The position numbers and the translations under genes were made by a program. Below are positions 5,870-37,428 of a stretch of DNA of 37,428 nt, piece by piece; position 1 is the stretch's first letter; each line of letters opens with the position of its first letter. The DNA is taken from positions 10,969 through 48,396 of the forward strand of contig CAKKRM010000213.1 of NCBI GenBank assembly GCA_919902735.1. Direction: 5' to 3'. The notes under the pieces were generated by a model. The model did not search any database. It was not told the origin of the DNA and saw nothing but the letters and a program-made list of their open reading frames with translations. Source of the stretch: Anaerolineales bacterium. Lineage in GTDB: Bacteria > Chloroflexota > Anaerolineae > Anaerolineales > Villigracilaceae.

Positions 5870-5902
5870 AGACCCTAAAGGTTTTTAAAACCTTTAGGGT
5901 CT
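5870..5902. repeat. 33-bp perfect palindromic repeat, family A (intergenic copy)
   Basis: Arms AGACCCTAAAGGTTTT / AAAACCTTTAGGGTCT pair perfectly around one central T. It lies 23 bases before the ATPase start, so it is probably transcribed with that gene. A related copy sits inside the FAD-subunit gene at 36078-36110, which marks this as a dispersed repeat rather than a dedicated terminator. Confidence 0.85.
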
Positions 5903-5925: not shown

Positions 5926-8520
5926 ATGCCCGAATCTGATTTCTATCTTGGCCGCCTCGTTGATTCAAAAACCGCAAAACCGACCGCGACTCCCGTTGAA
6001 TATGACCCCGCCGACCTGACCACGCACGCCGTCGTCACAGGCATGACAGGCTCAGGCAAAACAGGTTTATGTATTTCTTTGCTTGAAGAAGCGGCCTTGC
6101 AGGGCGTGCCCGCCATCATCATCGACCCCAAAGGCGACCTTACCAACTTACTGTTACATTTCCCCAATCTCGCCCCGCAAGACTTTCAACCGTGGATCGA
6201 CCCCGAAATGGCTCGTCGCGCAAGCAAAACTCTCGAACAAGCCGCAGATGAGGCCGCTTCCGCCTGGCGCACTGGACTCAAAGAGTGGGGCATAGGCCCA
6301 GACCGTTTGCAGGCTTTGCAGAACGCTGCCCAATTTGCCATCTTCACCCCAGGCTCGGATGCGGGCATCCCCGTCAGCGTGCTCTCTTCACTCGCTGCGC
6401 CAGACCTCGATTGGGAAACCAACCGCGAGGTCCTGCGTGAGCGAATTTCAAGCACCGTCACCGCGCTGCTTGGCTTGGTCGGCCTCAACGATCTCGACCC
6501 GATCCGTTCGCGTGAGCACATCCTGCTCTCCAATATTTTTGAATTCCATTGGAGCGAAGGCAATGACCTCGACCTCACCGAGTTGATCCTGCAAACGCAA
6601 ACTCCACCCTTCGCAAACCTCGGCGCATTCCCCGTGGACACTTTCTTCCCTGCCAAAGACCGTATGGAACTTGCGATGTCCTTGAATAACATCCTCGCCG
6701 CGCCCGCCTTTGAAACCTGGCGCGAAGGCCAATCGCTCGACATCAAATCCCTGCTCTACACCGCAGATGGCCGCCCGCGCCACAGCATTTTCTACCTCGC
6801 GCATCTCTCCGATGGCGAGCGCATGTTCTTCGTCACCCTGCTGCTCTCCGCCGTCGAAACATGGATGCGCACCCAGAGCGGTTCCACGTCCCTGCGCGCC
6901 CTTCTTTACATGGACGAGATTTACGGCTATCTTCCTCCCACCGCCGTCCCGCCCTCAAAAGGCCCGCTCCTGCGCATGTTGAAACAAGCCCGCGCCTTCG
7001 GCCTCGGCCTTTTGCTCGCCACCCAAAACCCCGTCGACATTGATTACAAAGCCCTCTCCAACACGGGCACATGGTTCATTGGCAAACTCCAAACCGAACG
7101 CGATAAGAACCGCCTGCTCGATGGTCTCGAAAGTGCGGCAGGCGGCATCCCCCGCGCCACAATGGACAAACTCATTTCATCGTTGGGCAAACGCGTCTTC
7201 GTCATGCACAACGTCCACGAAAAAATGCCCGTTTTAATGCAAACCCGTTGGGTGATGAATTTCCTCGCCGGGCCGCTCACACGCAACCAGATTCCCGCCC
7301 TTAACGAATTAGCCAACGCGAATGCATCGCTTCAGACTCCGCCCGCGCCTGTCTCTGCTTCGAGGACAGTGTCCAAACCTCAGCCTTCGGTGGATGCTCT
7401 GCAACCTGTTTCTGTTCCTTCATCGTCAGCCGTCAGCGGTCAGCCGTCAGCAACCCTTCGACAGGCTCAGGGCAACGCTTCCCAACCTTCAACCTTCAAC
7501 GTTAAACCTGCAACCGTTAACGGCAGCCTCACCAAACCCCCGCTCCCCGCAGGTATTCGCGAATATTATCTTCCGCAAAATTTCAGCCTGCCCGAAGCCT
7601 TCCAATCCGCGGGACGTGCCATGCCCGCCCAAGCTATGATCCAGGGAGTGATGTATCGCCCCTCATTGCTTGCCGCCGCCCAAGTCCGCATCCTTGACCG
7701 CAAATACGGCGTGGACTCTGAAACCACTCGCGCCACCCTCGTGAACTCGTTGGATCGCCGCGGCATCGTCCGCTGGGATGAATTCACCTACGCTGGCCCC
7801 TCGCTTGATAAAGTGGAGACCATGCCAGTCGCAGGCGCGCGCTTCGGCACAATTGATTCTCCGCTCAATGACACAAAGTTGATGACCGCTCTGCAAAAAG
7901 ATTTCACCGATTGGGCTTTCCGAAATTCATCTGTAACTGCGCGCGCCAATGTTGCGCTCAAAGTCTACGGCGGACCAGACGTCAGCCAGGCCGAATTTAT
8001 GACGGCATGTTCCGAGCAGGCCCGGGCGGGGTGTGATGCGGAAATATCCAAAAAGACATCCGCCATTGAAAAGAAGATCAAATCTCTTGAAGATAAACTT
8101 TTCCGCGAAGAACGCGAACTGCAGCAAGATCAGTCAGACCTGCAAAATCGGAATATTGAGACTGGCCTTAGCGGTGCGGAAGCGGTTGCCGGCATGTTAG
8201 GCTTGGGTCGTAAGAAAAGCCTCTCCACTTCAGTCTCGAAATTCCGCATGGCGCAAAACGCCAAAGAAGACGTGCGAGAATCAGAAGAATCCATCACACA
8301 ATACAAAAAGGACCTCGCCATCCTCGAACGTCAACGTGAAGAAGCTGCCTCTGAGATCAAAGACCGCTGGGGGCGCGTGGTCAATGAGATCAGTGAAGTG
8401 ACCATCAACCCGAAGAAGACGGATGTCTACGTCAATATCTTCGGCGTCGCCTGGATGCCGTATTATGTTGTTCAAGCTGGTGACGAAACCGTTGAAATGC
8501 CCGCCTTTGGCGCTGAATAA
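5926..8520 (+). CDS. HerA/VirB4-like P-loop ATPase with C-terminal coiled coils
   Basis: The 864-residue protein has Walker A GMTGSGKT (39-46), a following DPKGDLTN strand motif (67-74), Walker B ALLYMDE (325-331) and an ATQNP sensor motif (365-369). This is the pattern of HerA/FtsK-clade ATPases that bind DNA or drive secretion and conjugation. After about residue 465 comes an Ala/Ser/Pro-rich linker (to about 538), then a domain starting near REYYLPQNF, two charged coiled coils (about 690-745 and 780-820) and a short beta-rich end. GGAGAG lies 5 bases before the ATG. No nuclease or NurA partner is adjacent, so its role is unassigned; DNA translocation or a contractile or defence-type role are both possible. 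The linker is built from intergenic-type repeat DNA. Confidence 0.75.
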   Translation: MPESDFYLGRLVDSKTAKPTATPVEYDPADLTTHAVVTGMTGSGKTGLCISLLEEAALQGVPAIIIDPKGDLTNLLLHFPNLAPQDFQPWIDPEMARRASKTLEQAADEAASAWRTGLKEWGIGPDRLQALQNAAQFAIFTPGSDAGIPVSVLSSLAAPDLDWETNREVLRERISSTVTALLGLVGLNDLDPIRSREHILLSNIFEFHWSEGNDLDLTELILQTQTPPFANLGAFPVDTFFPAKDRMELAMSLNNILAAPAFETWREGQSLDIKSLLYTADGRPRHSIFYLAHLSDGERMFFVTLLLSAVETWMRTQSGSTSLRALLYMDEIYGYLPPTAVPPSKGPLLRMLKQARAFGLGLLLATQNPVDIDYKALSNTGTWFIGKLQTERDKNRLLDGLESAAGGIPRATMDKLISSLGKRVFVMHNVHEKMPVLMQTRWVMNFLAGPLTRNQIPALNELANANASLQTPPAPVSASRTVSKPQPSVDALQPVSVPSSSAVSGQPSATLRQAQGNASQPSTFNVKPATVNGSLTKPPLPAGIREYYLPQNFSLPEAFQSAGRAMPAQAMIQGVMYRPSLLAAAQVRILDRKYGVDSETTRATLVNSLDRRGIVRWDEFTYAGPSLDKVETMPVAGARFGTIDSPLNDTKLMTALQKDFTDWAFRNSSVTARANVALKVYGGPDVSQAEFMTACSEQARAGCDAEISKKTSAIEKKIKSLEDKLFREERELQQDQSDLQNRNIETGLSGAEAVAGMLGLGRKKSLSTSVSKFRMAQNAKEDVRESEESITQYKKDLAILERQREEAASEIKDRWGRVVNEISEVTINPKKTDVYVNIFGVAWMPYYVVQAGDETVEMPAFGAE
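7424..7521 (+). repeat. Intergenic-type repeats translated as the ATPase linker
   Basis: Four 7-bp units (S)GTCAGC run at 7424-7451. They are followed by CCCTTCGACAGGCTCAGGG (7454-7472), and then by CAACCTTCAACCTTCAACGTT-like direct repeats to about 7521. These motifs look like intergenic repeat DNA, yet here they are read in frame (residues about 500-532, including TLRQAQGN). Confidence 0.65.
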
Positions 8521-35548: not shown

Positions 35549-36442
35549 ATGAACCTATGGCAAGAATATAAACGGCCTGCTTCCGTTTCAGAAGCGCTTC
35601 ACGCCCTCACATCCGCGTCTGGTTCTGTCATGCCCATCGCAGGCGGAACAGATTTATTGCTCGACTTGAAACAAGGCCGCCACGCCCCTATCCACACATT
35701 AATTGATTTGACTTTCATCCCGGAGATGACCCTCCTCGAATTGAGAGGGGACGAACTCTTCATCGGAGCCGCCGTCCCGGTCAACCGCGTCGCACTCGAC
35801 CCGCTAACTGGTGCGCACGCCCAGGCATTGACCGAAGCCTGCAACTTGATCGCAGGCCCGCAAGTCCGCAACACTGCTACGCTTGGGGGCAACGTAGCGC
35901 ACGCCCTCCCCGCCGCAGACGGGACGATTGCCCTGACTGCCCTTGAAGCGCAAGCAGAAGTGGCTGGTATTTCTGGCACGCGACGCATGGCGTTCACATC
36001 CCTCTTCCTCGGCCCGGGTAAATCTGCACTCAATAAAAATGAAGAACTCATTGTTGGTTTTTATATTCCAATAAAACAGGCCCTAAAGGTTTCTGAAACC
36101 CTTAGGGTCTCCTCGTGTTTCAAGAGAATCATGCGCCCGCAGGGAGTGGCTTTGCCTATCTTGAATTGCGCCGTCTGGCTCGAGCGCGCAGGCGATATCG
36201 TCAATGACATTCACATCGCCGTCGGCCCCGGCGCAGCGACTCCCTTCCGCGCCACTGAAGCGGAAGATGCATTGCGTGGACAATCCTTTAACGAAGAAAT
36301 TTTCAACCGCGCCCTCGCATTTCTGCTCGCGCAAGCCCAATTCCGCACCAGCGCCCGCCGTGCCAGCGCGGACTATCGCAAGCATATCGTTGGTGGTTTA
36401 TTCAAGGATGTGCTGGATACTGCGTGGAAACGTGCAGCTTAG
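35549..36442 (+). CDS. FAD-binding subunit of a xanthine dehydrogenase-family molybdenum hydroxylase
   Basis: Start chosen at ATG 35549 (MNLWQEYKRP), 8 bases after AAGGAAGGA; the upstream open frame has no support. The 297-residue protein shows FAD-binding motifs AGGTDLL (31-37) and VRNTATLGGNVAHALPAADG (two-loop PCMH fold), then the CO-dehydrogenase flavoprotein C-terminal domain. It should pass electrons from the FeS subunit to the final acceptor. Together with a fused FeS-Mo partner it resembles the YgfM/XdhD pair of E. coli. Residues about 177-188 come from a palindromic repeat inserted in frame. Confidence 0.9.
   Translation: MNLWQEYKRPASVSEALHALTSASGSVMPIAGGTDLLLDLKQGRHAPIHTLIDLTFIPEMTLLELRGDELFIGAAVPVNRVALDPLTGAHAQALTEACNLIAGPQVRNTATLGGNVAHALPAADGTIALTALEAQAEVAGISGTRRMAFTSLFLGPGKSALNKNEELIVGFYIPIKQALKVSETLRVSSCFKRIMRPQGVALPILNCAVWLERAGDIVNDIHIAVGPGAATPFRATEAEDALRGQSFNEEIFNRALAFLLAQAQFRTSARRASADYRKHIVGGLFKDVLDTAWKRAA
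36078..36110. repeat. Palindromic repeat of family A inside the FAD-subunit gene
   Basis: AGGCCCTAAAGGTTTC / GAAACCCTTAGGGTCT pair at 14 of 16 positions and match the intergenic copy at 5870-5902. It is read as about ALKVSETLRVS between the conserved segments FYIPIKQ and CFKRIMRPQG. Confidence 0.85.
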
Positions 36443-36519: not shown

Positions 36520-37428
36520 ATGAACAATCAAATTACATTTACAGTTAACGGCAACAAACATACCCTCGAACCCATCGCGGGCGAGACTCTCTCCACCCTC
36601 CTTCGCGAGCGACTGCGCCTGACTGGCACAAAGATCGGATGCGAAGAAGCCGAGTGCGGCGCATGCACTGTCCTGGTGGATGGCGAGCCGATTATGTCGT
36701 GCGTCTATCCCGCCGGGCGCGCAGATGGGAAAACCATCGTCACCATCGAAGGATTGGCAAAAGAATTTACCGCCAAGAGCGCCAAGAACGCGAAGGAAAA
36801 AGAATTAAATCTTAGCGAGCTTGGCGGTTCAAAAGTTCTGCACCCGTTGCAGGAAGCCTTCGTTGAGCATGGCGCGGTGCAATGCGGATTTTGTATCCCT
36901 GGGCAGATCATGACCGCGTATGCTTTGCTCAAGCGCAACCCGAGTCCCAGTAGCGATGATATTCGTTTTGCATTGAAGGATACGCTCTGTCGCTGTGCAG
37001 GTTATCCAACAATTGAGAATGCCATTATTGCCGCAGCAGAATCTTTGCGCACGGGTGAACCTGTCAAGCCGCCGCACATTCCTGATTCGATTCACATTCA
37101 CAACACCGTCGGTCATACACATACGCGTCCCGATGGAGTTGAAAAAGTTACGGGTGATGCAATTTATACCGACGACCTTGTCTTCGATGGCATGGTATAT
37201 GCCAAAGCGCGCCGCGCGATGATTCCACATGGCATCTTGAAGACGCTCGATATTTCAAAAGCCAAAGCCCTGCCCGGTGTAGTGGCGGTTTTGACCGCCG
37301 AAGACATCCCTGGCGAACCCAATCATGGACTGGTCATTTACGATTGGCCGACAATTGTCGGTATCGGCGAACGCGTCAGATACGTGGGGGATACGATCGC
37401 GATCATAGCGGCGGAAACCCAACAGATC
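36520..37428 (+). CDS. Fused 2Fe-2S / molybdopterin subunit of a xanthine dehydrogenase-family enzyme (partial, cut by window end)
   Basis: GAGGAA precedes ATG 36520, and 303 codons are open to the edge. Residues 1-175 are the two 2Fe-2S domains: plant-type cluster Cys41, Cys46, Cys49, Cys61, and C-terminal cluster Cys122, Cys125, Cys157, Cys159. The start of the molybdopterin-binding subunit (GVEKVTGDAIYTDDL, then VRYVGDTIAII) follows in the same frame. FeS-Mo fusion next to a separate FAD gene is the XdhD/YgfN layout. Likely reaction: hydroxylation of hypoxanthine, xanthine or a related purine. A linker of about 24 extra residues (about 81-106) separates the two FeS domains and is repeat-derived. 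Confidence 0.88.
   Translation, partial: MNNQITFTVNGNKHTLEPIAGETLSTLLRERLRLTGTKIGCEEAECGACTVLVDGEPIMSCVYPAGRADGKTIVTIEGLAKEFTAKSAKNAKEKELNLSELGGSKVLHPLQEAFVEHGAVQCGFCIPGQIMTAYALLKRNPSPSSDDIRFALKDTLCRCAGYPTIENAIIAAAESLRTGEPVKPPHIPDSIHIHNTVGHTHTRPDGVEKVTGDAIYTDDLVFDGMVYAKARRAMIPHGILKTLDISKAKALPGVVAVLTAEDIPGEPNHGLVIYDWPTIVGIGERVRYVGDTIAIIAAETQQI
36767..36830. repeat. ACCGCCAAG-type inverted repeat inside the FeS-Mo gene
   Basis: Perfect arms ACCGCCAAG (36769-36777) and CTTGGCGGT (36820-36828) enclose CGCCAAGAACGCGAAGG-like repeats, a pattern I associate with intergenic repeats. It is translated as about TAKSAKNAKEKELNLSELGG between TIEGLA and LHPLQEAF, which are nearly adjacent in usual family members. 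Confidence 0.75.

Follow-up and report, generated by a model that had tools for sequence, protein, structure and literature searches.

Introduction

Coding palindromes, as far as the accounts consulted here describe them, have earlier been reported from Rickettsia, from Wolbachia and from a number of genomes rich in REPs, with the genes hit, and the sites within them, mostly differing from case to case. In the reports on RPEs and their Wolbachia equivalent, these are short, dispersed palindromes of several families that lie in frame in unrelated conserved genes, at insertion sites that are thought to be tolerated (PMC10969869, PMC2229807). Intragenic REPs, in the account we drew on, often encode 20 to 30 residues, with tRNA synthetases and, in one species, two uvrA genes among their hosts; in recB of Xanthomonas, two species have a REP at roughly the same site, and other genes of the same category are hit at different sites (PMC3733652). 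The same account lists GTAG repeats in Chloroflexi, including GTAG-23 of Thermomicrobium roseum, and gives CGTC REPs a stem of 8 to 9 bp that nearly always starts with two A-T pairs (PMC3733652). Bacterial MITEs (ERIC/RU and Correia) are outlined as small repeats with open frames that are fused to genes (PMC2229807).

Here, we analyzed a window of 37,428 nucleotides, i.e., the final bases of contig C213 from a draft genome of 4.26 Mb, together with related genomes of the Anaerolineales. The window carries a molybdenum hydroxylase whose inter-domain linker is filled, across relatives, by three unrelated palindromic families (F1, F2 and F3). Very probably, this pattern arose as short palindromes inserted repeatedly into tolerant loops and were filtered for open frames, and it constitutes an Anaerolineales analogue of RPEs and intragenic REPs. 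Going by the published description of RPEs, the Anaerolineales elements are like them in being short, dispersed, of several palindromic families and in frame in unrelated genes, but they belong to another phylum, measure ~50 to 75 nt (versus 105 to 150 nt for RPEs) and refill the same linker with unrelated families in orthologues and paralogues. The general mechanism is already known; this multi-family refilling of one linker is new, as is the finding, in four relatives examined, that F3 lies mainly inside genes. Among titles screened on palindromes of Chloroflexota or Anaerolineae, on intragenic REPs, or on repeats in this enzyme, drawn mostly from outside the subscription literature, none indicated such a pattern.

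Results and Discussion

A palindromic element between two FeS domains

The gene at 36520..37428 (+ strand) encodes a fused FeS-Mo hydroxylase of the xanthine dehydrogenase/aldehyde oxidoreductase type (Pfam Fer2, Fer2_2, and Ald_Xan_dh_C) and is truncated by the contig end, which is also the window end, leaving the 5' 303 codons. Upstream of it lies the gene for the FAD-binding subunit of the same enzyme (35549..36442, + strand; Pfam FAD_binding_5 and CO_deh_flav_C), so that Fer2, Fer2_2 and Mo domains plus an FAD partner, the features of this family, are all present. The best NCBIfam match of the FeS-Mo fragment, TIGR03311, scored under its cut-off, and the fragment reached no NCBIfam equivalog cut-off; the nearest named relatives of the gene come from Anaerolineales/Chloroflexi MAGs. 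Foldseek returned 1DGJ and 1SIJ as top hits of the model (query TM 0.74), and fold and domain order are the same as in these Desulfovibrio aldehyde oxidoreductases and in xanthine dehydrogenase.

Residues 81 to 106 (36760..36837, + strand) form a variable inter-domain linker that, in our alignments, is flanked by conserved IEGLA and LHPLQ motifs and comprises 26 residues versus 8 in most relatives. Because Pfam places Fer2 at residues 7 to 59 and Fer2_2 at residues 101 to 169, the insert falls between the two FeS domains. In the alignment to PDB 1SIJ, query residues 80 and 103 pair with adjacent chain residues 80 and 81, and the insert is therefore a clean gap in this solved relative, which, unlike the window protein, has none between its FeS domains.

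Most of the linker is encoded by the hairpin of an F1 element (ACCGCCAAG..CTTGGCGGT; 36769..36828, + strand), which was delineated by repeat search, folding, BLAST and pattern counts, and which is read in frame as TAKSAKNAKEKELNLSELGG. More specifically, an inverted-repeat search gave arms of 19 nt at 36769-36787 and 36810-36828 (84% complementary, 22-nt loop), and the RNA fold of 36760-36840 had a z score of -4.46, with 1 of 200 shuffles at least as stable. A first-pass annotation had proposed a palindromic element at 36767-36830 that adds ~20 residues; the hairpin is real, but its arms are imperfect, and the net gain is ~18 residues.

F1 is a dispersed, degenerate repeat of CGCNAAG units. 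Its unit pattern, CGCNAAGNNCGCNAAG, has 20 matches in the genome (several per single element, and a few being chance matches in genes) versus 1 for the reversed control pattern. BLAST of the element against its own genome gave 21 matches at E ≤ 10, self included, and ~14 further places were judged by eye to be true copies, making F1 a dispersed, multi-copy palindromic element. The exact long palindrome matches once, at the window itself, the degeneracy lying at the N of CGCNAAG. Most copies in this genome appear intergenic, the FeS gene being the sole clear in-frame F1 case. Even within one element, the CGCNAAG units differ in their N bases, and there are arm-to-arm mismatches. Pfam placement, dispersed copies and the gap in 1SIJ bear out the earlier proposal that the repeat occupies, in frame, a linker between the FeS domains that tolerates insertion.

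In AlphaFold2 models of fair quality (mean pLDDT of 69 for the window protein and 72 for the full-length relative L054), the insert is predicted with low confidence between better-predicted FeS domains. Values of <50 were found at residues 97 to 104 of the window protein and, in L054, at residues 83 to 107 and most of 625 to 664, which are two of its insert loops, as well as in some other segments. A surface loop had been predicted for the insert; the low pLDDT agrees with flexible inserts, yet such models fall short of proving surface exposure.

Other insert loops of the enzyme

A second, unrelated palindrome had been claimed for the adjacent gene, and we find it confirmed: CCTAAAGGTTTCTGAAACCCTTAGGG lies in frame at the two-domain junction of the FAD subunit (36082..36107, + strand; Pfam, BLAST). 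It too is dispersed, with 26 BLAST matches at E ≤ 1 that, with strands merged, represent 17 places; this number counts the window copy, and its weakest members are probably due to chance. By eye, the FAD genes among loci L024-L133 have two variable loops with repeat-like inserts, AEIAS-RRIPF and GFYIP-SSCFKR, the second of which holds the window's CCTAAAGG palindrome. A further copy of CCTAAAGG is located at window positions 5870-5902 (C213:16838-16870), just upstream of ORF 5926-8520.

In the FeS-Mo protein itself, inserts of at least 6 residues in 75 orthologues (≥600 residues) are almost confined to three loops: (i) the FeS linker; (ii) a Mo-domain loop near core position 370 (370-374), where the insert is mostly a CCTGACAGGTC palindrome; and (iii) a Mo-domain loop near core position 605 (604-608), with F1, F2 and one further palindrome. 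Outside these loops, three rows have an insert at core position 592, and isolated short inserts occur at 743, at 775 and at the C-terminus.

One linker, several fillings in orthologues

Orthologues were collected from 150 family genomes, 146 of which matched at E ≤ 1e-20 (paralogues counted), and from the best 80 of 258 matches in further genome contigs. Removal of duplicates left 91 distinct proteins, whose linkers were classed by peptide motif and length. Sixty linkers are short (4 to 9 residues, commonly QRVHEEMK), 27 are filled by the three unrelated repeat families (F1, 14; F2, 7; F3, 6), and 4 are other long linkers. From the 170 loci L024-L193, 6 were unparsed in this count, of which L132 and L157 stayed unread and four (L099, L101, L155 and L185) proved on later reading to have short linkers and are not part of the 91. 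The F1 linkers encode an EFTAKSAKNAK-like peptide, the F2 linkers a LTPTPLPQGEGQGVRE-like peptide (DNA CCTCTCCC..GGGAGAGG), and the F3 linkers LPPNAPHLGG or HSPHIQGKWGE (DNA CTCCCCCCA..TGGGGGGAG). Stricter DNA patterns recovered F2 in 4 of the 7 and F3 in all 6 motif-assigned orthologues; across the 150 family genomes, the F1, F2 and F3 patterns are present in 138, 132 and 62, respectively.

Empty sites had been expected in relatives, and they are common, as seen from the 60 of 91 short linkers and the gaps relative to PDB chains. The contrary outcome named beforehand, conservation of the insert in distant homologues devoid of the palindrome, was not seen: a hairpin signal of z ≤ -2 occurs in none of the 60 short linkers. 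The filled linkers are without the QRVHEEMK segment of the short ones, some retaining its final residues, a pattern that resembles replacement more than plain insertion. Such replacement of the short linker would mask any target duplication, and at the linker sites compared we identified neither a fresh insertion nor a target-site duplication. The F elements have inverted arms and, as described for in-frame MITEs, are small repeats with open frames joined to genes. By eye, L027 and L044 show apparent nested insertions, with a second sequence inside the F1 linker element and, in L027, another hairpin, and the L049 linker has two tandem F2-like units.

A fold z score of ≤-2 was reached by 6 of 6 F3, 4 of 7 F2, 6 of 14 F1 and 2 of 4 other long linkers. 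That many filled linkers fold better than shuffles, with F3 doing so throughout, is what selection for the hairpin itself, e.g., as a signal for pausing or mRNA processing between the FeS domains, would produce. We consider this very improbable, since the signal is missing from every short linker and from 8 of the 14 F1 linkers, and since Rfam gave three matches that are all far under threshold, none of them overlapping the F1 element.

Outside the family, 48 genomes of other families of the order had an orthologue, of which 40 were fetched and 37 read. Their linkers range from short up to 33 residues, a few being F2-like by eye (L229 and L232); many of those with 10 to 33 residues are without a clear palindrome, and by eye they are unlike the F1 peptide. 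Such linkers could suggest convergent drift of a low-complexity protein segment towards a hydrophilic Lys/Ala/Glu or Pro/Gly linker, with the palindrome as a by-product. This is scarcely credible for the filled linkers, as their DNA matches dispersed repeats in the same genomes and the same DNA is read in several phases.

Linker changes on the gene tree

Refilling of one linker many times by unrelated elements makes the number, age and fate of insertions countable against the gene tree. A careful tree (LG+G4, linker excluded) was built from 78 orthologues with longer sequences, the other 13, whose sequences are short and which include the window's own gene, being left out; a quick tree, likewise with the linker excluded, covered all 91, the window gene included. 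The quick tree required 22 class changes and the careful tree at least 18, 14 of them between short and filled, in counts that do not separate gain from loss. On the careful tree, F2 accounts for 6 changes in 6 rows, F3 for 5 in 6, and F1 for 6 in 12, of which 4 are forced by well-supported branches. Constraining a family to a single clade was rejected for F3 genes (p-AU 5e-8) and, in this tree from which the window gene is absent, for F1 genes (p-AU 3e-35). F1 could nevertheless represent one or two old gains, followed by repeated loss or replacement.

A patchy distribution of this kind might also arise from few old insertions that were passed among relatives as short segments, i.e., from linker shuffling by homologous recombination, which we judge possible but rather unlikely as the general explanation. 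Its best support comes from L034 (F1) and L049 (F2), whose flanking DNA is 95% identical and whose repeats are different: the last 30 nt upstream of the linker have 8 mismatches versus 0 to 5 in every other 30-nt block (600 nt each side), and because divergence is raised beside the linker, local recombination probably has some part. It is likewise favored by the F1 linkers, all 14 of which share an xEF[TAI]A start (by eye), and by a common phase in 12 of the 15 orthologues whose linker contains a CGCNAAG unit. Against it, the six F3 orthologue linkers differ in inner stem or loop sequence and occur in two phases, F2 changes as often as it has rows, and repeats are found in paralogues that are 43 to 54% identical, beyond easy recombination.

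Repeats in paralogous linkers

The homologous linker was read in 40 such paralogous FeS-domain genes, where DNA patterns detected F2 in 13 and F3 in 3, i.e., in 16 of 40, spread over paralogues that, by eye, fall into two or more clearly distinct types. A use of the paralogues as a stable-linker control was rejected, repeats being present there too. Three of the 40 have a stop within the matched stretch and may be broken or misassembled.

In each of two genomes, G060 and G080, the linkers of a pair of paralogous FeS genes account for 2 of the 8 exact F3 copies (loci L037, L297, L032 and L287), and the paired copies have different stem or loop sequences. This is far above even scatter and would fit sequence-directed insertion, in which the linker DNA (approximately GARGGNYTNGC / CTNCAYCC) is a transposase target. 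We regard such targeting as improbable, however, given that 17 of 20 other F3 copies lie in other, mostly unrelated genes, that the site is used by three unrelated families and that other loops of the enzyme are used too. At 15 of the 20 F3 sites, moreover, the flanking DNA holds at most 0.29 bits of information per position, and a search for a target in these flanks found no shared sequence.

Under recurrent insertion into tolerant loops, the reading we prefer, a short palindromic repeat would have landed, or arrived by recombination, at the linker between the two [2Fe-2S] domains, and F1 would have survived where one orientation and frame was open and hydrophilic. Insertion may occur anywhere, with purifying selection then leaving the frame-keeping copies in tolerant loops, and the FeS linker, its paralogue counterparts and a few other loops would be places where at least three unrelated families land repeatedly. 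From these patterns we infer the movement of the elements and its mode, their near-neutrality, the surface exposure of the inserts and the shares of insertion and recombination.

F3 copies inside other protein-coding genes

In four relatives, we examined every other exact F3 copy (n = 20; G060, 6; G080, 6; G037, 5; G058, 3) and found 17 in frame within Pfam-matched ORFs. By hand-worked coordinates, 12 of the 17 lie inside one domain (CbiQ, amine oxidase, GMC oxidoreductase, FtsJ, ValRS, LeuRS editing domain, Ham1, RimO radical SAM, amino-acid kinase, AlaRS, HemD and amidohydrolase), and 5 lie between or beside domains (Thy1, RlmN, two orthologue-like ABC ATPases and GHMP kinase). In L320 and L329, F3 lies ahead of the ABC-gene domain and may be intergenic, and L322 is without a Pfam match. 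F3 is in frame in ValRS (L317), LeuRS (L318, editing domain), AlaRS (L326), RimO (L321) and RdgB (L319), and the five F3-bearing genes tried on NCBIfam all scored above the curated cut-off (leuS, valS, alaS, rimO and RdgB/TIGR00042). In PDB alignments, the F3 insert is a gap for LeuRS, RdgB and ValRS; the AlaRS alignment as printed stops short of the insert, and no PDB chain matched the Thy1 ORF at the chosen cut-off. In these four relatives, F3 is accordingly in frame in unrelated conserved genes. As palindromes within genes, with tRNA synthetases among the F3 hosts, F1 to F3 are like intragenic REPs.

Across the 17 other genes, F3 is read in phases 10/2/5, and among FeS linkers both F2 and F3 occur in two phases. 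Being read in different frames, F2 and F3 would have moved as DNA, not as a peptide module. A third F2 phase (L288) was discounted, as the pattern start falls inside a longer C/T run and the frame is unchanged. Stop-free frames amount to 91 of 96 for F3 (16 of the 20 copies, with measurable ends), 36 of 60 for F2 (10 copies) and 20 of 42 for F1 (7 hand-picked copies). Since nearly every F3 frame is open, an open frame alone is a weak argument for F3, and Pfam match and position carry the argument. The in-gene share falls from F3 (17 of 20) to F2 (~4 of 10 in the window genome: L334, L336, L339 and L341) to F1 (one clear case), an order that is a trend and not a test because the samples come from different genomes. 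Having few stop codons, F3 above all, such families would therefore end up mostly inside genes.

We accordingly put forward, as a reading for which the case stands about even, that F3 of the Anaerolineales is a family living mainly inside protein-coding genes, almost stop-free in six frames, read in all three in different host genes and in frame in LeuRS, ValRS and AlaRS, and that the Mo-hydroxylase FeS linker is a recurrent docking place of F3 and other families in orthologues and paralogues. If so, the FeS linker would be a long-running natural experiment on insertion tolerance.

The foot of the F3 inner stem is CGTC in 11 of 20 copies and GTAG in 0 of 20 (L313-L332), with outer arms extending beyond the tag. 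On sequence grounds, this may hint at kinship of F3 to CGTC-tagged REPs. Unlike the CGTC REPs as published, however, F3 stems are C-rich, start with CTCCCCCCA/TGGGGGGAG rather than A-T pairs and have outer arms, and they do not conform to the CGTC-type stem. The window F1 element, with 12 to 13 nt on either side, has neither a GTAG nor a CGTC tag; for F2 in the window genome, GTAG occurs within 25 nt in 2 of 10 copies. Thermomicrobium roseum, the source of GTAG-23, is a member of the Chloroflexota.

In-frame repeats in the window genome

The first-pass annotation had held that this genome often domesticates repeats as protein linkers. The practice is clade-wide; in this genome itself, we count about six in-frame cases, F1 being otherwise mostly intergenic. 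"Domesticates" implied a benefit to the host, a claim that we do not maintain, as tolerance alone is enough. Whether inserts merely mark tolerated spots or some become useful linkers is now testable, and repeated DNA can keep remodelling working proteins where insertion is tolerated. For annotation, this means that an unusual stretch rich in Lys/Ala or Pro/Gly in a protein from these genomes can stem from a repeat.

The six or so cases are the FeS gene, the FAD gene, two mannosyltransferase-like genes, a paralogue with an F2-like linker (L273) and an ABC-transporter ORF with F2 (L336). The two mannosyltransferase/PMT-like proteins (L334 and L339, F2 at 1501-1519 in both loci) are paralogues of 37% identity with F2 in the same loop. 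Besides these, a histidine kinase (L341) has one F2 copy at its C-terminus.
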